Below, piece after piece: positions 2,725 through 61,774 of a stretch of 64,000 bases of DNA. Under the pieces are notes generated by a model, which was not told where the DNA came from, did not search any database, and was given only the letters and a program-made list of their open reading frames with translations. How positions within the stretch are numbered: position 1 is the first letter of the stretch; each line of letters opens with the position of its first letter. The translations under genes and the position numbers were made by a program. Source of the stretch: Bimastos eiseni (taxonomy: Eukaryota; Annelida; Clitellata; Crassiclitellata; Lumbricidae); NCBI GenBank assembly GCA_959347315.1, contig OY365817.1:4377643-4441642 (forward strand), in the 5' to 3' direction.

Positions 2725-5700
2725 GTAAAACCATTCTAAATTCTGAGCAATTCTAATTTCTATATAGATTCTAAATTCTCTCTGGAATAGCTTTCAATAT
2801 GAACCATTTAGAATGATTTGTTCTTTTGCTGAACATGGAAAGATTTCTGCTGTGGCTGGAAATGTCTCAGAAGTTGCAAGTCTCATCTGCGTTTGGAGTC
2901 TTGTTGAAATGCAAGCAAAGATGCCTCTGTGCTTGGGGCCGTCCATATATTACGTACGCAGCGAGGGGAAAGAGGGTTCGAATTTCGACGATTTTGCGTA
3001 CGGGTGCGTATGGTTGTGAGGGAAGTAGTCCCGAAAATATGTACGTACGCAATTGACATTGTCTAATTAGGCCCTATGACGTCCACAGCACGGAATATTA
3101 AAATCAGAATTGTAAACCCAATCACAGGCTATGTTACTGCTTAATCAATTTTATATATCAGTAAAACTTTTTGAATACAAATGTTGCTAGTGTTTTATTT
3201 CTTCATAACAGTTAACATACTTAAGCTGTTAAACATAATGCTTAACGAAAATCAATAACCTCCGACAAAATCAAGGGGCCATCAATAAATGGCGTCAAGC
3301 GCCCAGGGGTGAGGGTCACACATTTGTGACGATGTGTGAAGAGGGGAGAGGGGGTCGGCGAAATGTGACGTCACACCATGACATCAAGCATCAAAGTGCA
3401 TAATTTTTAAAAAAACTTTTGCTCAGTTAAACATTGATTTGTTTCAAATTATCGTTATTAAACACTTTTATGAATGTAATGATTCTACCACAGCCTTTCA
3501 TCTCGTGGAATGCATAATGAGTGTAATAATCATACTTTCTTCATTTTTTCGTTCTACTAGCAATAAGTATTTTTATAGTTATAATTAGTTTCCTTGATAA
3601 TCATAAGAAAATTTTGCATATAACATTCTGGACATCTTATTTTTCCGGTGTCAGAGCTTTGTGGCGTAATTTTTGAGTGGTCATGACTTTTGTGACGACG
3701 TGTGACGAGGAGAGATGGGGTCAAAAATCGTCCAAATTTGTGTGACGTCATTTATGGACGACCCTAGTGTCCTGTAGATGTCTTTAGCTAGTTAACCTTT
3801 GCAATGGGGTAGAGCACAAGCTTGCCTTGCCTTGCACTGCCCTATCCAGGCCGTGTCTTGCCCAACTCGGTTGTCTTATGCACAAGCCTTGTCTTGTTTC
3901 TCATGGCATATGTATCATGCACAGGTTTCAGTAATTGACGCTCAACCGAATGAATCAGAAACAACAAAAATTGGACAACCTGCTGAAACAACAACCTTCG
4001 TCACAATCTACTCTACACCCTCAACCTACTCTACACCCACAACCTACTCTGCACCCACAACCTACTCTACACCCACAATCTACTCTACAGCTTCTGCCTT
4101 CACGACTACCTTCATATATCCGATGTCACAGCCATCAGTTACACCAGAGACAACCGGCTCTGCAACGTCGTTTGCAAATGTTTTTTCAACGGAAACGACG
4201 ACAACAGCTCTGACAACACAACAAACAACGACCCCGACAACTGCTCAATCAATTGCGGTAACAACTTCTACAAACATTGCAATTGGAAGTCTCTTAGAAA
4301 CAAATAATCCGGACCTCCCACTGCCTGCACAACTTTTAGGCCTCGGATTGCCAACACTACCAGTTTCAAATATTCTTGATGTGACCTTTCCAACACTACC
4401 AGTTTCAAATACTCTTGATTTGATATTGCCAACACTACCAGTTTCCAATATTCTTGATGTGACATTGCCAACACTACCAGTTTCCAATATTCTTGATGTA
4501 ACATTGCCAACACTACCAGTTTCCAATATTCTTGATGTGACAATGCCAACACTACCAGTTTTCAATATTCTTGATGTGACATTGCCAACACTACCGGTTT
4601 CCAATATTCTTGATGTGACATTGCCAACACTACCAGTTTCCAATATTCTTGATGTGACATTGCCAACACTACCAGTTTCCAATATTCTTGATGTGACATT
4701 GCCAACACTACCGGTTTCCAATATTCTTGATGTAACGTTGCCAACACTACCGGTTTCCAATATTCTTGATGTAACGTTGCCAACATTACCAGTTTCCAAT
4801 ATTCTTGATGTGACACTTCCACAACTGGAAGTTTCCAATATTCTTGATGTGACATTGCCAACACTACCTTTCTCAATTAATCTTGGTTTGGGGTTGCCTA
4901 CACAGATATTTTCCAATATTCCTGGAGTGGAATTGCCGACTCAACTGCTGCCAAATATACCAGGAGTATTAATGCCTACAGCGATTACCGGAAACCCAGC
5001 AGATTACGGTAAGCACTTTACGGTAACATTGCAACGGTGTCATACATTGCCCATGCATGTTGCAACTGGTTCGGTAATGAGCGTGTTTGTGGTGTTGTTG
5101 CATATTGCCCATGGATATTGTGATAATAAAATCTAATTTCTAAAGTGCTACTATAAAGCTAAGTGTAAATCACCAGCTTCGTCTTGAAGATAAAAATTGT
5201 TAAGAACACCATAGTGGAGCATATTCAAATCGTTCAAATTTTGAGCTGGCGGATTGCTGTGAGGACAGATGTAATGTGGTGGTGTTTGTGGCTTTGGAGA
5301 AAGCACAGGCGAGAGCATTTTCAATAGTTTGGTTGATTTGGGTTATGCATAATGTTGACGATTGGAGAATTTCACAAATATGAAGAGTGAGCAGCAGGAT
5401 GGGTGAAGTGATCTAAGAAGCTAAAGTTTTGATAAAAAAATAACACCTATAGGTTGCAGCCAGGAAAATTTGCAATGAATGTCTGGGTGGATGCAGAGTG
5501 AAAGTTGATGGAAACAGGGATCTGGACATTTATTTGATTTAGTTGTTCACGCAGGTCTATTAATATGGATTCAGTTTTAGAGGGGTCAGGCACAGGTGGT
5601 ACTAGATACGATTTTGTACCCTTGGTATTATGCTCTATACATACAGTTCAGGTGGAACCTCCCTGCTTCAGCTGCCTGGCTGAAGATAGACAACAGTTCC

Positions 5701-6922
5701 AATTCTCAGGAGGCAACGAGTTTAGAGAGGCCTTTGACCCAGGAGTGTCAATCCCCCTAAGTGGTGGAAGCAAACCCACCCAGATCCAAGTGTCAGGAAG
5801 GCAAGAAATTCTAAAAATCATCCCCCGCTACCCATGATTGAATATGGAATCGAACGCATAGTCTTGTCCAGTATAAACGACTACCTAACTTCTAACTCGC
5901 TCCTAAATCCCCACCTGTCTGGCTTTACTAAGCGGCATTCTACAATAAACTTGTTTTTGTCATTTCTCACCAACAAGTCTCCTGTCTCTGCCTCCTTGAT
6001 ATCTCTGCAGCCTTTGATACCATCGATCACATATATTGCTCCAGCGACTGTCTACCTGGTTCGGCTTTTCTGATACGGCTCTTCCCTGGATCCTATCCTA
6101 TATCTCTTCCCGCTCTTTCTCAGTAAAGACCTCGAGCACTTCATCTAAATCATGCCCGCTCACCTGTGGTGTTCCTCAAGGTTCTGTTCTTGGGCCCCTC
6201 TTGTTCACCCTCTATACTACCCCCCTCAGTTCACTCATTAACGCAACCTCTGTTGACCATCGTCTATACGCTGACGACACGCAGTTATTCATTTCTTTCT
6301 CTCCAACCAGTTTCTCCAACTGCATTGATAATCTTATCCATGTCGTCACCCAAATCTCATCCTGGATTACCTCAAATCTCCTCTGCCTGAATCCCTCCAA
6401 AACCGAATTCATTCTGATTGGCCTCCGTGAGCAACTTTTAAGAAAATTCCTGATCCCTCTATTTCTCTCAACCCTGATTCTGCATCCACCCACACATTCA
6501 CTTTTGTGGGCGCTGTAGAAATGCTGAGATTACGATTACGATATAATTGGAGGCATTTGCCTCCGGACCCCCCCCCCCCCTATATAGAATGACCTTGGTC
6601 AATCCTTGCTTGACGCAACACATGCATCGGTTTTGCGGCTGTGAATTGAGTGGCACTTCTATCCACGACTCTCTCTCTCTTGCTCAGACGTATTCAGAAG
6701 AACCGAACAAAGCTTCATTAATCAGATGCGAGATTTCGCTCGTTACGTTTCGCCTGTGGAGAGATAAATGGGCCGAAGTTTTCATGGACCGTCGACAATG
6801 AAAGACGGGACAACCGTTGATGACATAAAGCGTCAAAGAGACGGAATTAATGACTTCGCAGGACAAAGAATCAGTGACGCCAATGGCAAAGACAAAAATA
6901 CTCCATACATCACCATATAGTT

Positions 6923-7108: not shown

Positions 7109-8448
7109 TAGTTTGTTGCAGAATGTCATCGTCAAGGCAGTCGTCTTGAGCGCGTCCTTTGGCGCAGGCGCTGTCCTGGTGACCGTGATTCCCGTGTAAC
7201 CTACTCTTCGTCCATTCTGACTGTTCTGTTTTGCTCAGGCCTGGATCGAGAGTGCCTCTGGGTAGTCGTCTCGAAGGGGCGCTAGCGCTATATCAAATTC
7301 ATAAATTATATAGATACATTATAGATAGATAGATTACATGAATCGACGCTACAGAGAGAAAGAGGGCGAATGTGCAGGGGACACTCGATGACTCTGGGTC
7401 ACTGCTATAAGTCAAAGATCTCCTGTAGGCCTACCCATCTGGTTCACCGGAATCTACCGTTACCTTTACTACGAGTTATCGCTCTGCTGACCTTTACAAA
7501 ATCAAGGACCTTGGCCTTCGTAGCTTGATACTCTCATCTCCGTCTATAATGGCCAGAATATCCTTCCACTCTATTCCACATCTCTCTTCGTCTTGGTGCC
7601 TTGGACAGGTCCCAGGTTACTCTGCTTGCAATATACGACGTTAGCGCAGTTTCTTACTCGGTGGCCCATGACTCTGTGGTTCCACATGCTCGCACTGCCA
7701 CCCGACGACAGAATAGGACTGCAGTCTCACACCCTCCTCTATTTGGAACAGCCTCCTTTCTGATATGAATTTTCTCCCGCGGGACAGTCTAGTGTAGCGT
7801 GATCGGGCCCCCTGGGTGGCAATTCACCCCGCTTCTGGGTTCCAATTTCTTGCGTACCTCGATTCTGCCCTACTGCGGTGTCAATTGTGGCAATTCTGGT
7901 TCACCCCCCTTAATCCTCTGGTACCCTCAGGAGGCCGCACTGTTGTTTTGCCCAGGTCCGACTGCCCGCGAGGTAAGTCTCGCTGGTTGGTGTAGATATG
8001 AGAAAGATTACCAATGTCAACGACCTAAGCTCATTAGAAATAACTTCGACTCGATTCCGACTGATTTATCTTTATTTCTTTGATAAAATCCACAGTCATC
8101 GAACAGTTATTATACAGAACGCTGTATTTACAACTACTACTACAACGACAACTTCTTCACTGACAACTCTGCACTGCTCTTCTATTTCTTTTCTCCTCTC
8201 TCCCTAACGACTCTCTCATATATGTACCCGAAGCAAAGCGAGACACTGCAGCGAGACATTGTAGCGAGACATTGTAGCGAGACATTGAGCGCAATAATCG
8301 CTAACCAGCTACGTGTGTATGCAATTTTGCCACACTAGCTCTTTTTGCAAGCTACTCAAAACTTTCCTGCTTGACCGGTCATGGGTTGAAGAGCCTTTGG
8401 ATGGTTATCTTCAAGGAGTGCTATATAAATTCCATAGACACATAAACA

Positions 8449-10647: not shown

Positions 10648-13600
10648 TGTTTGCCATGACAAGAGAAATATACTCATTAAAAACCGTATACAAAATGTGA
10701 GGAAAGATGATATCTGAAAGTTCAGAGTTACACAAATACTTTCAAATTAAGCCTATGATAGTTCTCAAAACATAAAAGGCATTAGACAGACTCTAATAAG
10801 CAGCAAATTTCATGCTCCATGGTACATGAAACAAAATCAAACAAAAATACAAAGGCCGTAGACAAGGAAAATCGAAGCAAAAAACTGTTGGCCCTTATGC
10901 TTCACCAATAACTATCCTATGTTGATAATAACCAATTTCATTTGTACGCCCTTTTACTCACTGATATAAGTTGTTTTTACCACGAATCCATAACAGGGAT
11001 GATATGATCGCTTTTACACCTGCTATGGCTTCCATAACAGCGGTCGCTATTATTTAAATGTAGGCAGGATAAGACTGCATTACGCTACTGTCACCTAGCG
11101 ACTTGAACTTTAATATACATGATATAATGTATATTCTGAAATGGTGTAGCCTTGAGACGGTTTGCCACTAAACTCAGTTACTGTATTGTACTTTTACATG
11201 TACACCTAATGTACAAGAGTTAGCTTTCTCACGATGGCTACTTCGCTAACCACTGGCGATATAATACGCCAGACGACGCCAATGCTGACCATCGCACACA
11301 ATGGAGACGACGCGTGCACTCCGTCAGAGGTCGCTGGCAGTGTCAAATGTCGGTTTGTCTTGCGACGAAATGCAATACCATTTGCTAGATGTTAATAATA
11401 GGTTGATTTGTGATGGTTGATTAGTTGGCGAAACTGACTTTGAAGCAGCTGCTGTTGTTTCTTATATTTTAGATCTTCAATGTCCTTTTCTCTTCCTTTC
11501 GGACTCAACGCAACGTAATACGGATCAGACGTATCCTGGAGTGACTGTCGTCTACTCGTGTCTTCCAGGGTTCCAGTTCAACGATGCCAGTCTCTACAAG
11601 GTCATCACCTGTCTTCCCATCGGAAAATGGAGCTCCATGCCCGACATCAATTGCATCCGTGAGTTGTTCGGTCTAGGTTGACGTATTCTTCCATTAAACT
11701 ACTCTGATCTAGTAACTTTCAGTACCGTGTCATGATGCTGTATTCGTTGGAGCGGACTTCAACGCTGTACTATTGCATCTCTGTAAGTTTTCTGTCCCCT
11801 GCTAAAAAAGCTCTAGGTCTCTGTAGAGTACCATAACTTAGGAAGCGCAATCTGCGGCTTCAATAATGATCAAAAGGCGCCACTCAGTATTGCAGATTTA
11901 TGGATTTTTGTCAGCATTCTCATCGATAAAGTTATGAATTGTTTTCTTATGGAGAGTTTAAACTGTCGTTAATCGTTGGTGAAGATTGGTTTCAAATATC
12001 AGCGCAATTCGACGGCTTCCCAGCAAGGAATCGTAAATCATATGGGTGGTTATTAATGGTTGATTTTCTGTGATGTCATTAGGGGCCTATATGCTTCCTG
12101 AATGTGTTTATTGGAAGACTGAAAGAAGAATGAAAGCAATCCGGATTATTTGACTTGGCAGATAAACAGCTCAATAGTCCTATTCTCGGTCTATTTTAGA
12201 TGTTCCCTTAAGAAAAGGAAGGCATGTGTTGGAGACAGTCTTTCTAATGGCTAAGAGCCCATTGTCTGATGATGGCTTGCGTCGATCTAAGGCTGTGCTT
12301 CCATTAGATCGATAGCACTACTAACAGTCTTCGGTGCAAACTCATGCTTTGAACCACTCCAGCCGTCAACACTGGGAGCACATGTTGTCATTAAAATGAG
12401 TCGCAGAAACATCACCACCATCAATATCGAACTTTATCACCCACAGAAAATGGCAACGAAAGAACGAAATCAGATCGAGAGAGGTCGCTCACATCGATCG
12501 CAGAGGGCGCCTATCGACGTCACAGCCAAACCAAGTGACGCCTTTCGGGCAATGAAACTCCTCCGCAATACAAACACAGAAAGATGCAGAAAGAGAGGCA
12601 GACATATAGACAGACAGACGAAGAGGAGTAGGTTTAGTTGATAGCATTGACCCGCTGACCCTGCCAGAAACTACTTAATGACAGACGCTTAGCAGTTGGG
12701 CCAAGGATTCCGTTAAAAGAAACGAATTGAAAGGAATCATTCGAAGAGAAGCGATTGAAAGGGAGCGACGCAAGACCAGACCAGAGCTCTGAAGGACGTT
12801 CATAGATTGAATTATTCACTAGACAATGAAATAGCAACAATCGATCGATCGATGGCGCTGCTATTCAATGGTTGTCGTTTTCAATTAGATATCGAACGAT
12901 GACGACGATGACGATGACAGCGGTAGATCTTTGGTCTATTTTGATTGGTCGGCAGTAGGGGTCAAAGGTCGGTTGAGTTGGAAGGGATTAGAAAGAGCTG
13001 CAGACGATGAAGAAGAAGAAAAGGTCTTTGATGGACTTCATCGTCTGCTTTTACCTTCATTTGAACCATCGACAACACATCATTAGATGTTAACGATCAA
13101 TGAATGCAGCTAAGAGGGATAGAAGAAGCTAATGAAAATTAGCACAACGATTAGACAGAGAGAAAACGGAGAGGAGGAAGGACTGAAGGAAGAACAGGAG
13201 GGAAGGAAGAAGGAGAGAAGGAAGAAGTGGAGAAAGGAGTACAAGAGGAAGAGCAGGAGGAAAAAGAGGAGGAAAAAATGGAGGAGAAAAAACAAGAGGA
13301 AGAAGAAAAGGAAGAAGAAAAGGAGGAGGAGAAAGAAGAGGAATAGGAGGAGGAAGAAGAAGAAGCAGAAGAGGAGGAAGATGTGAGGATATGCTCAGTC
13401 ATTGTGACCAATTGTCTAAAGACTGCTTCTCTTTTAGTCATATGGTATGTCTCCAAACACTGTCTGTAGATGAGATCTGACTATTACTATGTAGGTCCTT
13501 AATTGTTACTTTGTGTGTGTAGATGAAACGAGAGTGTCTCTCTTTGTCTTGTGACTCTGTTGCAGCCAAGAACTGTCCTCCGATCGCAGAGTCAGAAGAC

Positions 13601-15024
13601 ACGTACCAAAGCACTGACTTAACGTTCTCTGATTCGGTCGTTACGTTCCAGTGTGCTCCGGGTTTCTCGTTCCCTGACGGATCTCAGCGCAGGACCGTCA
13701 TCTGCCTCTCTTCTGGCCAGTGGAGCTCCATCGCTCCAGTCTGCACACGTAATTCAATCACTTCGTGGTCGGCCTCGACTCACCACAGAGAGGGTCAGGT
13801 CAGGTCAAGGCAGGGTCAGGTCAGGTTGTGTTGGCAATATATGTTGCGGCAGGGCATTCTGCTTAGAATAGCTTTAGAAAGAATCCATTTGCCCAGCAGT
13901 GTGATTTTGATTAAAGTCGAAAGACTGACAATTGTTAAAATTGTTTTGAAATTCAGTTCAAATAAAGATAGCTGGTCAAAATGTTATGAATAGATGGATT
14001 GATTGAATTATGGAAGTAGGCTGGATCATGTAATTTGTTCAATGGTTTGAGAGAACAAATCGATTGAAGTCACTCTTAAGCCACAGGATCCAATGGAACT
14101 AATAGCAGCCGTGGAAGAAGAAACCAGAGAGAAACTATCCAAATATAGAATAATTCAAAGAGCCACAACCGATATTAATCCCAGCTTCAGTCTCGGTCAG
14201 ATCTGAATGGATAGAGTTCGAGGAAAACGAGGAAGACGGAAGTAAGGACCAACAAGTAGGACTGTAAGAGGAGACAGCATGAAAAGGTGTAGGTGGTATA
14301 AGAGGAAGAGGAGGAGGAGGAGGAGGAGGACGAGGAGGAGGAGGAGGAGGGGGAATGATTGTGTATGCAGCGCTGGTTAAAGTGCCGTACTATAATATGT
14401 CAACTGTATACTAAGCATAATATAAGGTGTGTATAATATTCAATTGGTCGATTGTAGAAATCGTGTGAATGTGTTCGTACGTTGTTGTGTGTTATTGGTA
14501 GGAGCCAATTGTCCTTCGAAGTCAATCGATGAGCATCAGTTGATTGGTGAGAGTCCATCTGGATCGAATGCAACAGGTTTCTGTTCCATGGACAATGGCA
14601 CCAGCACCACCAGCAGTAGCAGCAGCAGGAGCCTTCGTTTTGACAATGGTCTGTCGTTTAAGACGATCAAGTGTACAGCTGCTGTCTCTCTGCTTACGAG
14701 TAATACGACGGATTGCGTTGCCAGATGGAGCGACGATGAACTGGACCCAGTCTGTCAATGTAAGCTGTCATCATCATCATCATCATCATCATCACCACCA
14801 TCGTCGTCATCATCATCACCACCATCGTCATCATCATCATCACCATCATCATCACCACCATCGTCTTCGCATGTTGTCATTCGTGTAGTCGTGGATAGTT
14901 CGTTATATGTAGGGAGAAAGGGAGAGAGACAAAGAGAGGCGCAGAGGGAGGGACAGTAGGAATGAAATAAAGATGAGAGACGTAGTTGAGAGATGAGAGA
15001 GGGTAGTTAGAGATGGAGAGAGCA

Positions 15025-15061
<37 letters not shown>

Positions 15062-18000
15062 AGCAGAATGAGAGGGAAATATGGAGAAAGAAAACGCTAC
15101 TGAGAGAACTGAGAGATATAGGGTAAGTAAGATGTGTAAACAAACGCAGTGATAGAGGCAGAGAGAGTGCCAGAGAGACCTATATAGATAGATGGAGCTA
15201 TAAACGTAAGGATGTTCTGGGCATTAAACGGAGGTGATGACGTTGTTGATCTGTGCGCTGTCTCTTCCAGTTCCTTTCATCTGATTGACCTTGTGTCTTG
15301 TCTTTCCATTCAGTTGGGTCTCATTGTCCTCCAGTTCCTTATCTGGCTAACGCCGTTCTCTCAGCTGAACAGACGATCAGTGGAGCGAGTCCCAGTCTCA
15401 CATGCGTCACTGGATTTCGATTCTACGATTTAACGAAGACGAAGCACGTCACTTGTGGACCACAACTGGACTGGAACCCGAATCCACTGCCTCCCTGTCT
15501 ACGTAATCTTCTTTTACTGTCGCCGATGATTCTTTCATTTATATGACGCCACCATTAAAGTATCCATCATTGATGCTCGCTCTGCATTTGTATGCATGAG
15601 GGAAGTGGATTGTCACGCTGTCTGTCTGTCTGTCTGTCTCTCCTCTCTCTCTCTCTCGGCTGCTGCATGATACCGATTCTCTATTTGAACGATTCGCAAA
15701 CATTATTTCCATTGTACCAAAAGCAGGTTCAAGACGTAACACCAGCAGAGGTCAGATCAAAGGCAAATGCGAGGTCCCTCTGCAATTAGTTTTTGGGGGC
15801 ACTTGGGGCATTGTAACTTTGTAAGTTCTTTTGAAGGGTCTGTACCCCATTCGTAAAAGCATTTCGAGCATTTGAGATAATGTTATGGAAAAGTTTAAAA
15901 GAAGATATTTTTCGTGTATACCACTTAGTGACACAATGTGGCCTACCACCACTAGTAGTATGCGTACCACCGTTTGTAAACCGTTCTTCTATTTCTAATA
16001 TAGCACTAATTTATATGACGCCAATTGTTCGTTTTCCTTGTACGAGTGGTCTATTGGCTGCTCTTCTGAATGTAATATTGTGTGAGTAACTTCTAACCAT
16101 ATTACAAAAGGACTAGATGACGAAATTACTAAATGATTGAATGATTTGATGACTGGATTACTAAGTGGATCGGCTATTAATGACTGAATAACTGAATGTT
16201 TAAAAGATAGAATGACTAAATAACTAAATGACCAGTTAATTAATGTCCTATTACAAACTTACTAAATGGCCATCTCTCAATGAGTCGGGGCTCAATTGCA
16301 TTTAAACCTGAATGAATAATAAGCTTAAAAACGGCAAAAACTCTTAAGTTTTGTTTTCATCTGTTAAAAACAGTTATCTCGTGTACCAGAGTTCCGTTTG
16401 TACCTTTCGCTCAGCCGAGTACGGTACAGTCCGTTTACGGCACAGTAGTAACCTACTCCTGCCAACCAGGTTACAAGTTCCCGAATGCATCCTACAGTCA
16501 GTCCGTCTTAAGCAGCTGCCTCGAAACTGGAAACTGGACGAATGTACCTCCGCCGTGTCAAGGTCACTTATTCCAATAACCGTGTCAAGGTCACACTAGA
16601 TTTAGATGATGTCATTTCAGATAATGAACCGCATGTGCAATTATCTTTGTTGGCTCTGCTCCATCATACCTTAAAGGGATTATACTGTATGATTCAGTCT
16701 CCTTACCTCTTGTCTTGGCTCCCTTCAATTGGCTGCCGATGGACTCCCTCCGACTGGCCCTTGTGTGCCTACTATTACGGCTCTTCAGGCCAGAACCATT
16801 GCCTCTGTTTGGCCCATCAACAAGAATTGTCTTAATCAACTGCTGTGGCTGGTGCTAATCAGTTTGCACCTGCCACAGTTTTGCAAGCCCCAAAGTCTCT
16901 ACTATTCAACAGTAGCGCTATATAAATTACAGTATTAGAATTTTGATCACACTTTTGTCACCTAACTGTGTCAAGTTCATAATATATACGTATACACTTA
17001 TTATTTCACAGCTGAAACAAACATCAAACTGTGACGTTTAAGAAATAGAGTATTGATTTGATTATGATGAGAAAAGCAATCAATGAGTGACTGATTGCTA
17101 CTGAAAACAATCAATTGACTGATGATTGACTGATGATGAAATGATTGTTCGTTGAATGAAACCGTTTGCAGAGATCTTGTGTCAGCCTCTGCAACCGATC
17201 ATCAATGCAACGATGGAAGGAAACGGAACTGGTCTTGGTGCCATCATAACATACATCTGTTACTCAGAGATGAGGTTCCTCGATGGATATGACACAAAGA
17301 CAGTCAGATGCCAAGAAGATGAACAATGGAATGAAACGCTGACCACCTGTGAAGGTAACACCACCACAGATCTCACTTGTTCTATACGACCTCCGCCATA
17401 CCAGTGGCTTCTATCTATCATGCGCCTTTCTCTGTGTCCGTCCGTCCGTCCGTCCGTCCGTCTGTATGTCTGTTTCTACCTTTCTCTTTGTGTGCTTTTG
17501 TGGTTGACCAGATTTTCCTGATGGCCTTTAATTGCATTTAATGTATTCTTCATTTCTGCTTTTATGATCTACCTAATATATGTCATAATAATGTCTTCTA
17601 TGATCTACATAATATATGTCATAATAATGTCTTCTATGATCTACATAATATATGTCATAATAATGTCTTCTATGATCTACATAATATATGTCATAATAAT
17701 GTCTTCTATGATCTACATAATATATGTCATAATAATGTCTTCTATGATCTACATAATATATGTCATAATAATGTCTTCTATGATCTACATAATATATGTC
17801 ATAATAATGTCTTCTATGATCTACATAATATATGTCATAATAATGTCTTCTATGATCTACATAATATATGTCATAATAATGTCTTCTATGATCTACATAA
17901 TATATGTCATAATAATGTCTTCTATGATCTACATAATATATGTCATAATAATGTCTTCGTGCCTACACACAAATATCACATACATAATATAAACATTCAA

Positions 18001-26599: not shown

Positions 26600-26922
26600 A
26601 TGCCTGTCGAGTACAAGGATGATGATGATGATGTTGTTCGTCTGTTGCCACTGCTCGTGACATTCGTGGGTGTCTTCGTGACAGCGTGCGTTGTGTTGTC
26701 CAGACTTCGTGGTTGGACGTCGAAAGGAGGAGAAAGAAGAGGAGAGGAGGACCATAATATGCGACGTCGTCATCGTTGTTCTAATCCTCCGCCGTCGATG
26801 GCTTCTCTTCCGATCGTTGGTTCTCTCGTCTTCATGACTTCCTCTCGTGGACTCTTCCATCGCTTCTTCGCTCACAAGGCAAAGACACTCGGACCCGTCT
26901 TCACATGCCACCTCGGATCCAA
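26600..26922 (+). pseudogene. P450 copy A exon 1: membrane anchor and hinge
   Basis: ATG at 26600 and donor GTAAGA at 26923, ending two bases into a Lys codon. A hydrophobic anchor (LLPLLVTFVGVFVTACVVL) is followed by an Arg-rich stretch and the hinge NPPPSMASLPIVGS. It is nearly identical to exon 1 of copy B. Homology starts at the ATG, with unrelated sequence upstream. Confidence 0.85.
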
Positions 26923-27220
26923 GTAAGACTTCTTATAGTTTCATCCTATCTAATCTATCATAATTGAAACTCATTTGAATCAAATCTAACTAACAAATAG
27001 CTAAATAAACTAATTAATTCTAATTTATTTAAAACTAATTCTGTTGTACTCCAATCCAATATAGCGATGCTAATACAATATTAACTAAACAGATTATATT
27101 ACCAGCTTAATGAGAGTGACCTTTCGCCTATCAATCCACCTGCGATCGTATATCTGTATATGTTTACTTGTATATTATTGTAACGAAACCGGTTACATTC
27201 CACTTCTGGTGTACCAATTC

Positions 27221-27641
27221 GTAGCGTGATCGGGGCCCTAGGTGGAAATTCACCCCGCTTCTGCGTTCCAATTTGTTGCGTACCTCGATTCTGCCCTACT
27301 GCGGTGTCAATTGTGGCAATTCTGGTTCACCCCTTAATCCTCTGGTACCCTCCGGAGGCCGCAGTGTTGTTTTGCCCAGGTTCGACTGCCCGCGAGGTAA
27401 GTCTCGCTGGTTGCTGCAGATATGAGAAAGATTACCAATGTCAACGACCTAAGCTCATTACAAATAACTTCGACTCGATTCCGACTGATTTAGCTTTTTT
27501 TCTTTGATAAAATCCACAGTCATCGAACAGTTATTGTACAAAACGCTGTCTCTCCAACTACTGCTACAACGACAACTTCTGTAACGACTGTTCTTTCAGC
27601 GCTGGTTCCTTACTTCGCACTCTCCATTCTAACGACTCTCT
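27221..27641 (+). repeat. Dispersed repeat of unknown class, copy 2, in the place of P450 exon 2
   Basis: Same repeat as 7794-8217. It lies in the intron of copy A where exon 2 should be found. Confidence 0.6.
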
Positions 27642-27862
27642 TTACAATGACGACTCGAACTACACTCTCCTCTAATTGCAAAGGCAAGTGGTTTCAAATG
27701 CAAACAGTGCTGTTGGACCACATTCATTGCAGATGCACCATTAGAGACACAAGTAGGGCGTTATAGAAGTGACTCGCGTCTATTCGATCACTTACCAAAA
27801 TAAACAATAATCATTGACTGTTTCAATTATAATGCATGATAAAGTATGATTGTTGTTCTTAG

Positions 27863-28665
27863 GAATCATATATCGCCAGTACGACAAAGACATTCGTCGT
27901 TATCACCAGCAGGCGTTGACTGTACTGAAGGAGTTTGGTCTCGGTCAGAATGAGATGGAGACGAGGATCAGCAGAGAGATCGATGAACTCATCGAACACA
28001 TCGATTCAAAAGAAGGACAATCGTTCGATCCAGCAGAACTTTTGTCCCTATGTACGTTGAACGTCGTCACAAGCTTTCTATTCGCAAATAGACTCAAGCA
28101 AACGGACCCCGAACTGCGTCAACTGAACGATACCATCCACCAGTTCATCAACACCGTCAGAGTCTACGTCGCTTTTTGTCCGTTTCTACGATTCCTTCCA
28201 CCTTTCAAAGGAGCCATCAGCAACGGCTTGCGGCTACTTCAAGAAAGCAATTGATTCATTGGAATGAGAATTCGCTCCAGTCTGGAAAAGGAGAAGACGG
28301 TTGCTAGCTACGTAGCGAGTTTCATAGCAAAGGAGAGAGATCTGGGAAAATACGATGAGGAAGATCTCTTCTTTGCCTGCCGAGATCTAATGGAAGCTGG
28401 ATCAGCTACAACAGCCACAACCATTCTTTGGTCACTGGAGATGATGGCCAACAACCCAGACATCCAGAAACGAATTCACGAAGACATCGATGCCCAGTAG
28501 GATGCAGAGCAGAAGCCGACATCAAGTGATGCGGCCAGATTGCCCTACGTCGAAGCAACGATACTCGAAGTGATGCGATTGAGGACAGTTCTGCCTCTGG
28601 CGCTGCCACACAAGGTCATCGACGATACAACAATCGCTGGTTACGACGTCACCAAAGGAACCATG
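27863..28665 (+). pseudogene. P450 copy A exon 3: helix C to helix K, two in-frame stops
   Basis: Acceptor TTCTTAG before 27863 and donor GTCAGT at 28666. The frame is unbroken except for TGA at 28252 and TAG at 28498. The I-helix reads AGSATT, where most P450s have an acid before the Thr pair. The ExxR pair is EVMR. The usual Trp-x-x-x-Arg of helix C is not present. Confidence 0.85.
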
Positions 28666-28771
28666 GTCAGTATCGTACAATCGTCGTTTCTAAGGTGTTT
28701 CATAAATTTATAGACCGAGAAAAGTCACAAAATAAATGTATGTTACATTGACTTTTTCCTATTCTTTCCAG

Positions 28772-28907
28772 GTGCTGCTCAATGTAGACGCCGTCCACGT
28801 GGATACAGAGACATGGGGTGATCCGGAAGTCTTCCGTCCCAACAGATTCCTCGACGAATCCGAGCAAATGGTCGTTGTAAGGAATCGAATCATTCCCTTT
28901 TCTATAG
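28772..28907 (+). pseudogene. P450 copy A exon 4: PERF region
   Basis: Acceptor TTTCCAG and donor GTCAGT. Encodes DPEVFRPNRFLDESEQ and the start of the heme loop, IIPFSIG. Confidence 0.88.
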
Positions 28908-29362: not shown

Positions 29363-29550
29363 GTCGGCGTTCCTGTCTGGGAGAGTGAATCGCTAGACAG
29401 GAGTTGTTCCTCATGTTCACCAGACTCCTCCAGCGATTCGAAATCCGTCCACCCGAAGGTCAGCAGAGGATCGTCTGTCAACCTATTCCAGCCGCAGTCG
29501 TCGCTCCATCGTCCTTCAAAGTGCGACTCATCCAGAGAAATATCAGATAA
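29363..29550 (+). pseudogene. P450 copy A exon 5: heme loop, with premature TGA
   Basis: Acceptor TGTAAG before 29363. Encodes RRSCLGE, then TGA at 29386, then IARQELFLMFTRLLQRFEIR and the normal C-terminus to TAA at 29548. The equivalent codon in copy B is GGA (Gly). Confidence 0.88.
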
Positions 29551-34027: not shown

Positions 34028-34344
34028 ATGGCTGTCGAGTACAAAGATGATGATGCTGTTCGTCTGTTGCCACTGCTCGTGACATTCGTGGGTGTCTTCG
34101 TGACAGCGTGCGTTGTGTTGTCCAGACTTCGTGGTTGGACGTCGAAAGGAGGAGAAAGAAGAGGAGAGGAGGACCATAATATGCGACGTCGTCATCGTTG
34201 TTCTAATCCTCCGCCGTCGATGGCTTCTCTTCCGATCGTTGGTTCTCTCGTCTTCATGACTTCCTCTCGTGGACTCTTCCATCGCTTCTTCGCTCACAAG
34301 GCAAAGACACTCGGACCCGTCTTCACATGCCACCTCGGATCCAA
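34028..34344 (+). pseudogene. P450 copy B exon 1: membrane anchor and hinge
   Basis: ATG at 34028 and donor GTAAGA at 34345. From the Val-Arg after the Asp run, the protein is the same as copy A exon 1. The Asp run after Glu-Tyr-Lys is two codons shorter. Confidence 0.87.
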
Positions 34345-35398
34345 GTAAGACTTCTTATAGTTTCATCTATAATCTCACCATTATAATCGAAATCTAATCT
34401 AATCTAACATTGACTTTCATTCCGCAACCTGGAATAAAGTTTTTCGGGTATAATTTCTGAACTGAAAGGGTTTTTATAAATGCGAGGTCATCCAATGGTT
34501 TTACAATATATCCCTTTCGATATGACAACACAGTAAACTGTGAAATAAACACCAACAGCACTATTCTAACCGTTCTACTTTCTGCGAAACACATAGTTGA
34601 CTGCAGCAGATCAAAATGACCTTATAACGTAAAATTCAACTAACGCTCGTATACGATGTTGAGTATAACTCGTTTGCATTTTCACAACTTATACGAACCA
34701 ATCTTGGATTGATTGACTGTTTGCCTTTTTGTATTTGGCAATAACGCTCAGATGACCTTGAAAATGAAGGTCATCAGATTGTTCTACAATTTTGGAACTA
34801 GCTTCTGTGGCAATCACACATACTCGCCTTTGGCTTATTTGACTTCTAATCTATCATCTATAGACATGAACAGAGTCTCCCAGCACCTATCGTTCCTAAG
34901 ATTATACTCAGAGATAATAACATTGAGTTAATATTGCATGATATTACTATAAAATTACAATATTTAGTTTTTGTATGAATACATCTACTATAAACACTTT
35001 CAAGGCCATTGTAGCAACTTAAGGTCATGTGTTAAATGGTTGATGTTATCAACAGAATACTGCTACTATCAACTGGATAATACTCTTAAACACAGAATGA
35101 ATGACAAAATTTCTATTTATAATCAATGCACCCTGTAGTGTGTGTCCTTGTATGTGTTGTTTGTACTTCTTTGTGTACACGTACGATTGCAAACGTACAA
35201 CTGCACGTGTGTCCTTAAGAGTGCTTGTGTGTGTATGTACTTGTATGTGTGTCCTTGGGTGTTCCTGTGTGTGTCCCTGTATGTGTGCCCTTGTCTGTCA
35301 TTGTGCGTGTCCTTGCGCGTGTGTTCTTATGCGTCCTTGTGTGTGTCATTGCGTGTGTGTCCTTATGTGTCCTTGTAAGTGTGTGTGTTGTTATATAG

Positions 35399-35520
35399 GT
35401 TGGTGATGGTTCTAAATGATCGTCGAACAATTGATGAGGCTCTGATCAAGAAGGCAGCTTTCTTCTCCGGAAGAACTCCCAACTACTCCTCCCAAGTCTT
35501 CTACAACCCTAAAACTAAGG
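35399..35520 (+). pseudogene. P450 copy B exon 2, with a GC donor
   Basis: Acceptor TATATAG before 35399. Encodes LVMVLNDRRTIDEALIKKAA and FFSGRTPNYSS, the standard segment after the hinge (compare the VVVLND...EAL motif of CYP2 proteins). Frame joining to exon 3 (TK-GII) requires ending at 35520, where the intron starts GCACGT rather than GT. No counterpart is found in copy A. Confidence 0.78.
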
Positions 35521-36489
35521 GCACGTGTGTGCAATTGTCATGGTTGCCACTGTTCTCACAGTGCAATTGTCATTGTTTAGAATTAAGATATCAAGTTACA
35601 ATTGCTACGGTTCACTTCTCCCGGTCCAATTGCATGTATACGGTTGTCCTTAGCGGTGCAATTGCCCTGCAGCGTAACCATGCATTCCACTATGCAGCTT
35701 TGGTTACTTTCACACAAGAAAACTTTTGTAATTTTTACCCGGGGTTTAAACAATCCCTCAATATCAAATAATTAGGTCCAAGTCAGGACTGCAGAGTAAA
35801 AAATTTGTCGCTGAAATCGTGTCCCGTCCCACGTTTCGCAAGCGCCCAGAAATTTTATTTCTATAATTATTACAAACAATTTTAAGCCAAGCAAATTAGA
35901 CAGAAATGTTATCTGATGTAGGCCTACATTAAGTCAGCTGCGAGCAGTGCAAGGTGAAGAAAGCAGGAAAACCAGATAATTTGTAATTGAAATGAGACCA
36001 TGGTGAGTTTTTATAAGTTTCTTGGTGGAAGAAGTAGGCCTACAAGAGAGAAGCATCAGCATACAGCCTGGTGTATATATTCCTTTGATGCAACATCATG
36101 TAATGCATGATAACCAATGAGTCGTCACTCAGCCACAGGAACCTCAGATCGCAGACTGAGGAGCGATGTATAGAGAAACAGTAGTCCTTGTACAGGATTA
36201 TAGGTTGAAGTGGTTGTAGATTGGACAGACTAATTCGAAAGTCAAATTCAATTCAAATTCAAAAAGTCTGAATTCAAATTTTTTTAATATCTTTTCAGAT
36301 TATCTCAAAGGCTTTTTAGGGATATACTAAAGATGGCCAGAGTATACGATAATTCTAATGTACAAATAGTTTCTATGGCGCCGCATCAATCGAACATTAT
36401 CTATCTGTCAGCCACATTCCATTTGGTCTTTGACTGTGGTGTATACTGAAGAAGGTACGAGCGTTGTCTGTTGGTGTTGATTTTCTTAG

Positions 36490-37292
36490 GAATAATTCAT
36501 CGCCAGTACGACAAAGACTTTCGTCGCTATCACCAGCAGGCGTTGACTGTACTGAAGGAGTTTGGTCTCGGTCAGAACGAGATGGAGACGAGGATCAGCA
36601 GAGAGATCGATGAACTCATCGAACACATCGATTCAAAAGAAGGACAATCGTTCGATCCAGCAGAACTTTTGTCCCTATGTACGTTGAACGTCGTCACAAG
36701 CTTTCTATTCGCAAATAGACTCAAGCAAACGGACCCCGAACTGCGTCAACTGAACGAAAACATCCACCAGTTCATCCATAGCATTCGATTCTTCTTAACT
36801 TACTGTCCGCTACTCCGCTTCCTTCCACCTTTCAAGAAAGCCATAACCAAAGGCTTTCGCCAACTTCAAGAAAGCAATTGATTCATTGGAATGAGAATTC
36901 GCTCCAGTCTGGAAAAGGAGAAGACGGTTGCTAGCTACGTAGCGAGTTTCATAGCAAAGGAGAGAGATCTGGGAAAATACGATGAGGAAGATCTCTTCTT
37001 TGCCTGCCGAGATCTAATGGAAGCTGGATCAGCTACAACAGCCACAACCATTCTTTGGTCACTGGAGATGATGGCCAACAACCCAGACATCCAGAAACGA
37101 ATTCACGAAGACATCGATGCCCAGTAGGATGCAGAGCAGAAGCCGACATCAAGTGATGCGGCCAGATTGCCCTACGTCGAAGCAACGATACTCGAAGTGA
37201 TGCGATTGAGGACAGTTCTGCCTCTGGCGCTGCCACACAAGGTCATCGACGATACAACAATCGCTGGTTACGACGTCACCAAAGGAACCATG
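36490..37292 (+). pseudogene. P450 copy B exon 3: helix C to helix K, two in-frame stops
   Basis: Acceptor TTCTTAG before 36490 and donor GTCAGT at 37293. Same stops as copy A (TGA 36879-36881, TAG 37125-37127). Codons 36756-36863 form a strongly diverged island between identical flanks. The I-helix is AGSATT. Confidence 0.85.
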
Positions 37293-37398
37293 GTCAGTAT
37301 CGTACAATCGTCGTTTCTAAGGTGTTTCATAAATTTATAGACCGAGAAAAGTCACAAAATAAATGTATGTTACATTGACTTTTTCCTATTCTTTCCAG

Positions 37399-37534
37399 GT
37401 GCTGCTCAATGTAGACGCCGTCCACATGGATACAGAGACATGGGGTGATCCGGAAGTCTTCCGTCCCAACAGATTCCTCGACGAATCCGAGCAAAAGGTC
37501 GTTGGAAGGAATCGAATCATTCCCTTTTCCATAG
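37399..37534 (+). pseudogene. P450 copy B exon 4: PERF region
   Basis: Acceptor TTTCCAG and a donor GTTGGT weaker than that of copy A. Encodes WGDPEVFRPNRFLDESEQ. Confidence 0.87.
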
Positions 37535-37697: not shown

Positions 37698-37885
37698 GTC
37701 GACGTTCCTGTCTCGGAGAGGGAATTGCTCGACAGGAATTGTTCCTCATGTTCACCAGACTCCTCCAGCGATTCGAAATCCGTCCACCTGAAGGTCAACA
37801 AAGAATCATCTGTCACCCAACGCCAGCAACAGTCATCGCTCCATCGCCTTTCCAAGTGCGATTGATTGAGAGAAATAGAAAATAA
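37698..37885 (+). pseudogene. P450 copy B exon 5: intact heme loop and C-terminus
   Basis: Acceptor TCTAAG before 37698. Encodes RRSCLGEGIARQELFLMF and a full C-terminal strand region to TAA at 37883. It differs from copy A at about a tenth of positions, unlike the identical exon 3. Confidence 0.88.
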
Positions 37886-48234: not shown

Positions 48235-49002
48235 ATGAGCGTCGTCGGTGGTTGCCATCAGGCGCCTCAGATGTACCACGCGCTGCCAAGGGACTTTGTA
48301 TACCATCACCACCAGCCTCTTCCTCCTCCGCCATCTTCATCCCTACCACCCTCCCAAACGCAGCAGCAACAGCAGCGGTATCTTCCATCGATGGAGACGC
48401 TTTCTGCGGCCGCAGCTGCAGCAGCATCGAGCCTCCACTCGTCTGCAATGAATGCGTCTCCTCCTTCATCCGACAACTCCAGCATTGCCTACTTCCAGAA
48501 CCTCATGTTCAACTCCTCCTCTCAATACCCTAGCTCGTCCGTAGGTCCAGACTACGCCACGTTGTCTTCCACAGGGGGCACCGACCACCAACTTACCCTC
48601 TGCCATGCAGACGTCTACTCCCATTCCACTCCCTCCACCCTCTACATGAACTACGACGAACTGCCGCTTCTCCTGCCCGCTGGAGGAGGAGATGGAGGAG
48701 TGGATGACGGAACGGTGCCTCGTGTTAGGACGGTCAAGCGGAGGGTCAGTTCAAACCGGAAGGAGAGACGAAGGACGCACAGCATCAACACGGCCTTCGC
48801 TGCTCTACGCGGATGTATTCCCAATGTTCCATCGGATACGAAACTGTCGAAGATTAAGACGCTGCGATTGGCGACGAGTTACATCGCCTATCTGATGGAT
48901 ATTCTCAACAAAGACGATCCAAAGTTGGCCGAGGGGGGATTCAAGGCCGACATCACGAGGAAGATCGAAAGCAGGGAGGAGAAACGAAAACGAGAGTCAG
49001 AG
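48235..49002 (+). CDS. Hand: Hand exon 1
   Basis: 256 codons from ATG 48235 to the donor GTTAGT at 49003, phase 0. It carries the low-complexity N-terminus and the whole bHLH. The open frame runs beyond the donor into a CT/TA repeat, but those residues are not part of the protein. Confidence 0.94.
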
Positions 49003-49083
49003 GTTAGTGCATGTGGCTTGCCTTCATTTGAAAATATAAATGCAAATACACCACATATGTTAAATCCGAATTCACTATCACTT

Positions 49084-49151
<68 letters not shown>

Positions 49152-51398
49152 TCTGTGTGCACAAGCGAGTGCACTGCCTTGGCGTGAGTCGTAATATATC
49201 TATATAATGACGTAATTTCACTTTCACTCTCTATAGCTGCTTTATCACTCCTGTTAATTAGTCAGACTTAGCACTTTTATAAATTGTCGTTGGAATCGAG
49301 TCCAATAACTTTTGTAGCAATGATACAGTTATTCGTTGCAGCAGAATCGTCGAAGTTGCGTCTGTTCTGTGTGCCATCTAATGTAAGAGAACCACAAGGG
49401 ATGGTATCTATCTATTCAGAGGCACTCCCTGCCTAACCTCGGCTGAAAAGGACAGTTTTAACAGAGGTGTAAAATGAAATTAGGAGTTCTTAGGTAGGAG
49501 AAGGAGCTCTATGGGAAGTCCATTCGAGAAGGTTGGTCCCACGACCGAGAAAGCCCGATTCTGCATTATAGAAGTGCGTGCAAAAGGGACGATCAGGTCG
49601 CCATGAACTGCAGAGCGAAGTAGTCGTCAACCACTACTGGCAGTGATAGGGAGACATAGCTCCTGCAAATAAGCAGGCGCAGTACCGCCAAGGCAGCGCC
49701 AAACTAAGGCAGATACCCTAACTAAGATGCGCAGGGGTAGAGACAACCAGTGCAGGACATCCCTCATGTACTCGTGTTCTGGGAATCTCACCAATCATGC
49801 AGCGGCGCAGCCGCACGCAAAACCCGCTCCAAACGAGCAATCCGAACTTGGTCAGCTATATAGGAAAGGTGTGTGAGGCATGGTATATAGGGCGTCTTAG
49901 GAGCCTCTCAAAGACTATGTGCGTACTACGCAGTTATCAGTTAGAAATAGGTGTAACTTCAAAGTACATGTATACTATAGCCTATAGACATGTATCTTAA
50001 ACCTAATTGAATCTAAAGCCAAATCGACTCTTTTTGCTGCCCCTGCAGGACACATTGCCTTGAAGGTCTTACATTAGTATAGGCATATACTCATAACGAC
50101 CCCAAATCATTTCCTCCCTAACCGACTTTCAAATCCTTACAAACTCTTTTCGAAAGAAAAGCGTTCGTTTATCTTTGCCATTGACAGACTTAGTGCTTTT
50201 CGAAATCGAAAAGCAACTTCTAATCGGTTGGAAGAGCGCTGGGTTATAGTAACATGAAGAGCAAGGGTTTGAGCCTCTCTCCTATATGTAGGCCTACACG
50301 AATCTCTGCATGGTTAACCATCAGTGAAAGATCGTACTGTCACTCTGTCAGCGCCACTTCTCCCTGTTGTCAGTTATAAGTAGGCCTATACATGATCCAG
50401 CACAACAGTAAATAATCATATATATATATATATAAATTCACAAACATATACTATAGCACATATCAATCAGTATTGCTTCCATCACGTCTTCTCTGACCAC
50501 AGCAGCGCAAGCAAAAAACAACGGCAATGCAACAAAAGGTTACCTCTCCATTGTATTGTTGTATAGTTGCATGAAACAGGAAAACATCATTGCAACAATT
50601 CGACAACCTTCCCATGATAATGTTGAAGAAACAGAGTGTATAATATAGCATAAGAATAGGTGGCAATCGCTCCAACTCGACGTATACAAACTGCAGACAA
50701 CAGTAGAGTGCAACAATTAGGCAACCATTCAATGCTCGCACTGCAAAACATGACAACGTACAACCAGCTGCTATCTTACAATGTCCAACAACCATCAGTC
50801 GGTGGTGCTGAAGGACTTGCTCAAAGTCCCTATCCATACACTCTTTATAGTCCTACAGATGCAGTGACCGTCTCATGCCGGAGATGTGGATCGAACCCAC
50901 GCTCTCGTGGGTGACAAGACGAACACCTTAACCAAAAGGAAACTGTGCCTCACAAAGGCAGCGAAAAGGCGCAAGATAATTCTACCACCGACCGCTCATA
51001 CAAACCAGTGATTAATTGCTGACAGATTTATTTTAATCTGTCACTTATGAATTCGACGGTTGCATAATTTCGTATTTTATCGTTCAATTTGGATCCGACT
51101 GAAACTTATCAGACCAGACGCCTTATTAAAGAGCTAAAGTGAGGACCTGCTGCATGCAGCAGAGTAGAGCTATAGCAATGTAGGAGTCTCTTTCTTTCTT
51201 CTTAGACGCAACGCTTAATTAGAACGGACCGTTTAATGCGACCGTCGTCATCTGATAACCTGTTCTAAACCACTGTGACCGGTTTATTATTCGCAGGAAA
51301 TCCTCAAGGCTATCAGCGCGCATGGAGAGGAGAAACCCCCGTCGCGAGGTAGAACCGGTTGGCCTCAACAGGTCTGGGCCGCAGAGCTGAAACAGTAG
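48235..51398 (+). CDS. Hand: Hand-family bHLH transcription factor, two exons
   Basis: Two exons encode 289 residues. Hand proteins are class B bHLH factors that dimerise with E proteins and drive heart, mesoderm and neural-crest or fin/limb programmes in vertebrates and mesoderm or heart in other animals. Here the start MSVVGG resembles vertebrate MSLVGG. His-, Pro-, Gln- and Ala-rich stretches follow, and then the bHLH (about residues 180-231). Its basic region [12 protein letters not shown], helix 1 [13 protein letters not shown], loop [10 protein letters not shown] and helix 2 [13 protein letters not shown] are near-identical to HAND1/2. The C-terminus [16 protein letters not shown] is the family signature. 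The intron sits at the same place as in vertebrate HAND2 (KRxxE/EIL). No disruption is seen. Confidence 0.95.
49085..49149. repeat. (CT)n(TA)n compound microsatellite in the Hand intron
   Basis: Begins about 80 bases after the exon 1 donor. Confidence 0.92.
50770..50949 (-). mobile_element. tRNA-derived SINE, copy 2 (in the Hand intron)
   Basis: On the minus strand: GGCACAGTTTCCTTTTGGTT (A-box region), B box GGTTCGATCCA, then AGGGACTTTGAGCAAGTCCT. It is homologous to 41616-41846. The 3' boundary is uncertain. Confidence 0.7.
51297..51398 (+). CDS. Hand: Hand exon 2
   Basis: Acceptor TTCGCAG before 51297. 33 codons then TAG at 51396: [18 protein letters not shown] followed by the conserved [15 protein letters not shown]. 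Joining to exon 1 restores the family alignment without gap. Confidence 0.95.
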   Translation, partial: EILKAISAHGEEKPPSRGRTGWPQQVWAAELKQ

Positions 51399-60464: not shown

Positions 60465-61774
60465 CATCCATCCATCCATCCATCCATCCATCCATCCATC
60501 CATCCATCCATCCATCCATCCATCCATCCATCCATCCATCCATCCATCCATCCATCCATCCATCCATCCATCCATCCATCCATCCATCCATCCATCCATC
60601 CATCCATCCATCCATCCATCCATCCATCCATCCATCCATCCATCCATCCATCCATCCATCCATCCATCCATCCATCCATCCATCCATCCATCCATCCATC
60701 CATCCATCCATCCATCCATCCATCCATCCATCCATCCATCCATCCATCCATCCATCCATCCATCCATCCATCCATCCATCCATCCATCCATCCATCCATC
60801 CATCCATCCATCCATCCATCCATCCATCCATCCATCCATCCATCCATCCATCCATCCATCCATCCATCCATCCATCCATCCATCCATCCATCCATCCATC
60901 CATCCATCCATCCATCCATCCATCCATCCATCCATCCATCCATCCATCCATCCATCCATCCATCCATCCATCCATCCATCCATCCATCCATCCATCCATC
61001 CATCCATCCATCCATCCATCCATCCATCCATCCATCCATCCATCCATCCATCCATCCATCCATCCATCCATCCATCCATCCATCCATCCATCCATCCATC
61101 CATCCATCCATCCATCCATCCATCCATCCATCCATCCATCCATCCATCCATCCATCCATCCATCCATCCATCCATCCATCCATCCATCCATCCATCCATC
61201 CATCCATCCATCCATCCATCCATCCATCCATCCATCCATCCATCCATCCATCCATCCATCCATCCATCCATCCATCCATCCATCCATCCATCCATCCATC
61301 CATCCATCCATCCATCCATCCATCCATCCATCCATCCATCCATCCATCCATCCATCCATCCATCCATCCATCCATCCATCCATCCATCCATCCATCCATC
61401 CATCCATCCATCCATCCATCCATCCATCCATCCATCCATCCATCCATCCATCCATCCATCCATCCATCCATCCATCCATCCATCCATCCATCCATCCATC
61501 CATCCATCCATCCATCCATCCATCCATCCATCCATCCATCCATCCATCCATCCATCCATCCATCCATCCATCCATCCATCCATCCATCCATCCATCCATC
61601 CATCCATCCATCCATCCATCCATCCATCCATCCATCCATCCATCCATCCATCCATCCATCCATCCATCCATCCATCCATCCATCCATCCATCCATCCATC
61701 CATCCATCCATCCATCCATCCATCCATCCATCCATCCATCCATCCATCCATCCATCCATCCATCCATCCATCCA
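60465..61774. repeat. Perfect (CATC)n tetranucleotide array, 1,310 bp
   Basis: About 327 uninterrupted CATC units. This unit creates no stop codon in any of the six frames, so His-Pro-Ser-Ile and Trp-Met-Asp-Gly polymers of more than 400 codons appear as open frames on both strands. None is a gene. Confidence 0.98.

Follow-up and report, generated by a model that had tools for sequence, protein, structure and literature searches.

Why are two neighbouring copies of a P450 gene identical, base for base, over hundreds of positions on both sides of a 105-base stretch in which more than a quarter of the positions differ? The copies, A and B, lie in a 64,000-nucleotide stretch of the genome of the annelid Bimastos eiseni (contig OY365817.1; the whole stretch analysed is called the window), and they represent an old tandem duplication of a single P450 of the CYP2 clan, that is, of a detoxification-enzyme gene. 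Exon limits were placed by eye on the basis of splice signals and homology, which yields the following anatomy.

26600-26922, forward strand: copy A exon 1, open, with 3 mismatches in 317 aligned bases relative to B exon 1
27221-27641, no strand assigned: repeat in copy A, after exon 1 and before exon 3, at the expected place of exon 2, 89% identical to 7794-8216
27863-28665, forward strand: copy A exon 3, with stops at 28252 (TGA) and 28498 (TAG)
28666-28771 (A) and 37293-37398 (B), forward strand: intron 3, 106 bases, identical in both copies
28772-28907, forward strand: copy A exon 4
29363-29543, forward strand: copy A exon 5 (heme-binding), with a private TGA at 29386 and 26 of 181 bases different from B
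34028-34344, forward strand: copy B exon 1, open
35399-35520, forward strand: copy B exon 2, with the donor GC in place of GT
36490-37292, forward strand: copy B exon 3, with stops at 36879 (TGA) and 37125 (TAG)
37399-37534, forward strand: copy B exon 4
37698-37882, forward strand: copy B exon 5 (heme-binding), open, with a stop codon directly after it at 37883

Membership of the CYP2 clan is evident from a P450 fold with matches to PF00067 and from ExxR, PxxF-type and heme motifs. PF00067 is matched by four of the five scanned pieces of copy B, exon 1 being the one of the four that scores under the cut-off, and no match was obtained in the B frame containing exon 2. Read by eye, the translations of copy B include EVMR (ExxR), FRPNRF (PxxF-type) and, where FSIG is joined to GRRSCLGEG, the heme motif, worded FxxGxRxCxG after the accessible text of PMC7830528. 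The nearest named proteins among the matches listed belong to the leech Helobdella robusta (34-38% identity), and the closest relative among those matches (the best 120 of 192) is a protein designated P0001, at 84% over 52% of the query. Relatives were compared as protein sequences only, with P0001 as the close relative and P0121 as a partial one. Between exons 1 and 3 the two copies do not align, the longest exact match reported there being 13 bases, and their introns are hardly alignable, with the exception of the 106-base third one. Agreement at a fixed offset ends at about 28922; roughly the final 60 bases of intron 4, and the region past exon 5, realign with gaps.

Several other features were recorded elsewhere in the window. 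These are a perfect or near-perfect 8-base tandem repeat of about 1.3 kb in which several frames are open (60465-61774); two tandem arrays with periods that are multiples of three, one of about 39 bases (4347-4958, overlapping the open frame 3799-5136) and one of about 36 bases (17539-17988, overlapping the open frame 17564-17992); a 319-residue open frame with a helix-loop-helix domain (48235-49194; PF00010, 1.5e-18); a reverse transcriptase fragment (6036-6518; PF00078); and a Sushi domain (13523-13993; PF00084).

The initial annotation of the window had counted 28 base differences in 36 codons, 16 of them residue-changing, between 28129-28236 in A and 36756-36863 in B, flanked by difference-free stretches of about 180 bases on the left and 560 on the right. 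Realignment base by base confirms these counts, places the first difference at 28131 and the last at 28235, and defines the segments below.

27952-28130 (A) and 36579-36757 (B), forward strand: left identical tract, 179 bases without any difference, from base comparison
28131-28235, forward strand: island of copy A, interpreted as unconverted, at helices F to G, from base comparison and protein placement
36758-36862, forward strand: island of copy B, interpreted as unconverted, from base comparison, sharing 32 of 36 residues with P0001
28236-28798 (A) and 36863-37425 (B), forward strand: right identical tract, 563 bases, including both common stops and the whole of intron 3

Thirteen of the 28 differences fall at third positions, and 20 of the 36 residues are the same in both islands. 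For 28 differences scattered uniformly across 847 bases, a span so short would have a probability of about 10^-23; likewise, the 430-base identical run in the aligned exon 3 (804 sites, 34 differences) was reached in none of 5,000 permutations. The island is thus real, and its differences are clustered far beyond chance. A third identical block, of 311 bases (26635-26945 in A, 34057-34367 in B), takes in the greater part of exon 1 plus 23 bases of the following intron, which brings the identical bases to 1,053 (311 + 179 + 563).

Which part of this pattern is unusual becomes apparent from the divergence of the remaining exons. In exon 5, which is a mosaic too, the two copies differ at 8 of 101 bases in the 5' half and at 18 of 80 in the 3' half, and this seemingly unconverted end, at about 22%, is comparable to the island (28 of 105, 27%). 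The island is therefore close to the background divergence of the paralogues, and the identical blocks are the part that calls for explanation. Their sharp ends, in old paralogues with diverged surroundings, are characteristic of conversion between loci. We conclude that recent, patchy interlocus gene conversion between A and B probably missed the island, and assign this reading a probability of roughly 0.83. Conversion as a process is what the observed mosaic suggests, and the zones beside the tracts, with 6 of 89 and 4 of 108 bases different, resemble what older conversions would leave. Of the causes offered in the initial annotation, conversion that spared this patch is accordingly the one that the mosaic and the near-background divergence of the island support.

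Under the conversion reading, exon 1 and two blocks reaching from exon 3 to exon 4 of one copy would have been overwritten by the other copy, and the 105-base F-G stretch would have escaped and retained its old divergence. Such homology-limited conversion would need several tracts: two separate ones astride the 105-base gap, and the one in exon 1, all within a short time.

Whether selection now preserves the island depends on the condition of the two copies. Two in-frame stops are common to both and lie inside the identical right flank (TGA at 28252/36879 and TAG at 28498/37125), at sites where P0001 carries Gln and Leu; the third stop of copy A (TGA, 29386) lies just past the CLGE of the heme motif. 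No recognizable sequence of exon 2 was found in copy A within 26946-27862. In P450s, an acid precedes the I-helix threonine (motif AGxD/ETT). At this position, A and B both have Ala and P0001 has Asp; an acidic residue (Asp or Glu) is present in 78 of 84 stop-free paralogues. The exon 2 donor of copy B (35521-35522) is GC. Of 28 paralogue loci searched, five matched exon 2 over its full length, and all five have GT; the GC may be an additional lesion or a functional donor of the rare GC type. Neither copy has an open frame through all exons or the I-helix acid of a working P450, and by their sequence both look like pseudogenes. In the initial annotation the copies had been treated as genes; their common stops, the identical block at exon 1 and the absence of exon 2 from A had been overlooked. 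More widespread decay of the flanks was considered and rejected. Where 80% or more of the 84 stop-free paralogues agree, A and B depart at 6 of 20 positions on the left and 10 of 41 on the right; intact P0001 departs at all 16 of these as well, so no added decay is seen beyond the stops and the I-helix change.

Since both copies appear to be broken, present selection cannot be what keeps the island. Sparing is better attributed to a mismatch barrier together with chance; in all likelihood the island survived either because its sequence had by then diverged too far or through chance.

The position of the island in the protein nevertheless invites a selective explanation. It aligns to residues 220-255 of P0002, a full-length relative, and, in three CYP2B proteins from rodents, to residues 200-237 or 202-239. 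In the structure model of P0002 (mean pLDDT 90.6; best PDB match CYP2R1, then 2D6 and 2C9), residues 220-255 run from inside a helix (213-227), across two short helices, into another (243-272). We take these helices to be F, F', G' and G, and the segment to correspond to SRS2 and the start of SRS3. The placement in the F-G area given in the initial annotation thus holds in the CYP2B alignment and in the predicted structure, on which the island would extend over helices F to G.

The alternative that survives best is that selection for different substrates acted while A and B still worked, removing conversions of F-G, and that the stops arose later and were spread by conversion; the island would then be the remnant of a divergence peak that selection had maintained. 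For a divergence peak maintained by selection the site is apt, yet both copies are broken, and a divergent segment repels conversion even without selection. Nor does the island itself bear the mark of diversifying selection, which had been proposed to precede homogenization: dN is 0.25 and dS 0.63 (NG86), and the ratio of 0.39, being below 1, points to divergence under some constraint.

A broader view of F-G is provided by the other P450 genes of this genome, which contains at least 113 exon-3 matches, some of them fragments and 10 with stops. A very large CYP2-clan cluster, with dozens of exon matches in 350 kb, was observed at G000:C6:41300174-41648041, and smaller clusters of CYP2-clan exons are present on C1, C4, C13 and C16. 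The best 90 of the 113 matches, including A and B, were fetched and aligned, the 23 weakest being left out; 88 of the 90 loci entered pairing and gave 26 mutual-nearest pairs, of which the 24 above 79% identity (23 without A/B) were used. Of the 26 sister pairs, 21, including A/B, have an island dN/dS below 1. Island dN exceeds dS in two pairs, L079/L085 (0.050 versus 0.04, five differences) and L065/L072 (0.012 versus 0, one difference); one pair has no change, and in two dS was not computable.

Over the 23 pairs without A/B, residue changes are more frequent in F-G (173 of 828 codons) than elsewhere (767 of 5202; circular-shift P = 0.001). In addition, when the 36-codon window of greatest divergence was located in each of 22 pairs, it lay on F-G in 8, where 3.5 are expected (P = 0.016), or in 7 of 21 without A/B (P = 0.038), two further pairs above 99.4% identity having been dropped from this test. 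More rapid change of the protein at F-G is thus a general feature of the family. In the same 23 pairs, however, no significant excess was found at synonymous sites (112 of 626 versus 646 of 4288, P = 0.11) or at four-fold sites (53 of 274 versus 343 of 1869, P = 0.36), and synonymous change is higher in F-G in 13 of 22 pairs. Because synonymous change is not significantly raised, a general escape of F-G from conversion is not established, and we rejected general sparing as an explanation.

A pattern near that of A/B, judging from exon 3, appears in three tandem P450 loci with a stop-free exon 3 and rather conserved flanks (L023/L031/L034, G000:C1:2349088-2382479), in which it is less exclusive. 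Synonymous differences affect 10-11 of 25-30 comparable codons in F-G (codons 84-132) but proportionally fewer on either side: 3-7 of 60-66 between codons 12 and 84, and 3-7 of 94-96 between codons 132 and 240. This peak favours substrate selection but is not the only one, because codons 240-268 also diverge synonymously (8-9 of 22-25). In keeping with the conversion reading of A/B, patchwork identity occurs in further P450 pairs that share a contig: L025/L027 has 184 identical bases in its left part and about 17% divergence on the right, and in L011/L015 and L060/L089 the diverged part lies toward the 3' end. These mosaic pairs and the trio were chosen after looking, and the P values of the mosaic tests are descriptive. 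Taken together, the location of the island, the family-wide protein signal, the window counts and the trio speak for substrate selection, and the lesions, the synonymous result, the second peak of the trio and the low dN/dS of A/B speak against it; we regard it as unlikely.

Considerably less probable is an assembly or polishing artefact, in which the reads of one copy corrected the other except at the island. Exact identity confined to places where reads could map would indeed have this appearance, a judgement made from the assembly alone. However, A and B belong to the same 29.6-Mb contig and their neighbours are unlike, the partly diverged zones beside the tracts should have been corrected too, and graded mosaics are seen in the other pairs.

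We give still less credence to conversion from a third paralogue, another of the causes offered in the initial annotation, by which the island of A would derive from a different P450 gene. In its favour, this island is much farther from P0001 (15 of 36 residues) than that of B (4 of 36, 11%). Searches of the 660-Mb assembly, however, revealed no donor: among the best candidates scored, both the whole tract and the island of A match only A and B. The closest other P450 exon match in the genome has 43% protein identity to B; across the 88 further exons fetched, at most 14 of 36 residues and at most 12 consecutive bases are in common with the island of A. Only P0001 and P0121 exceed 48% identity among the protein matches listed, and the islands of both are nearer that of B; P0121 was tried as an A-like relative and rejected, since its island matches A at 17 of 36 residues and B at 23. 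The divergence of the island is also near that of the exon 5 end. For this assembly the proposal comes close to being refuted, although a donor may since have been lost from the genome.

Finally, a recent duplication whose island was diversified fast by positive selection would account for the identical flanks but is refuted in substance by the unalignable introns (the interval from exon 1 to exon 3 cannot be aligned, and intron 4 can be only near its end), and stands equally against the 26 of 181 differences in exon 5, the 13 of 28 island differences at third positions with a dS of 0.63, and the stops in both copies.

Returning to patchy conversion between A and B, its direction can be weighed by comparison with P0001. 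In the left region, B differs from P0001 at 11 of 89 residues and A at 13 of 89. The left flank thus groups with the island of B, and the right flank, with 28 of 143 residues different in the sequence common to both copies (20%, two stops counted), falls between the two islands. Because the left flank and the island of B are equally near P0001 and the island of A is far, transfer from B to A seems slightly the likelier course by these distances. This is weakened by the right tract being farther from P0001 than the island of B is (20% versus 11%). Furthermore, A is the more damaged copy, lacking exon 2 and carrying a third stop, and could be an older pseudogene that passed its stops to B.

A and B resemble CYP21A2 and its pseudogene (PMC3843699), where conversion likewise links a P450 gene to a paralogue that carries lesions, but in the earthworm pair neither copy is intact and neither direction of transfer is clearly favoured. 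Divergence peaks between converted duplicates have been treated in the theory of Teshima and Innan and are illustrated by exon 5 of the human red and green opsins (PMC3924837, in the sections available), where, as here, flanks of low divergence surround a sharp peak over one segment; unlike A and B with their stops, both opsins still work, and their peak contains known functional sites. In GOT1p1/GOT1p2 of the copepod Tigriopus californicus, regions of high divergence similarly persist under ongoing conversion, and a second paralogue pair is not kept functional in all populations; this is a different gene family, for which population data exist (PMC3728101, accessible text). Mammalian CYP1A1/CYP1A2 are likewise a P450 pair homogenized in some exons only: the start of exon 2 and exon 5 are converted, and exon 3 remains strongly diverged, with amino-acid distances of 0.569 and 0.655. 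Their converted parts, in contrast to those of A and B, include SRS1 and SRS5, and the available portions of that report (PMC3199271) describe no spared F-G segment. The CYP6B pairs of Helicoverpa zea are also duplicated P450s with gene conversion, but their tract, as far as the accessible text goes, is polar, confined to the 5' side and devoid of an island inside a converted exon (PMC7830528). A spared island at F-G was not found described in the partly accessible, mainly open-access literature on conversion between P450s or other paralogues.

A and B are a true and clean mosaic of an already known kind, in which broken sequence is common to both members of the pair and the differing patch is most probably a leftover of conversion rather than something new. 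A more far-reaching idea, which we hold to be improbable, is that F-G might serve as a reservoir of old variants in the large CYP2-clan expansion of this genome as much of the remaining exon 3 is repeatedly homogenized between tandem neighbours, with A/B as a fossil and the trio on C1, by its exon 3, as a possible living case. A first statistical test here gave a signal at the protein level and no significant one at synonymous sites, and the 88 further fetched exon-3 loci make the escape of recognition segments from homogenization a statistically testable matter.
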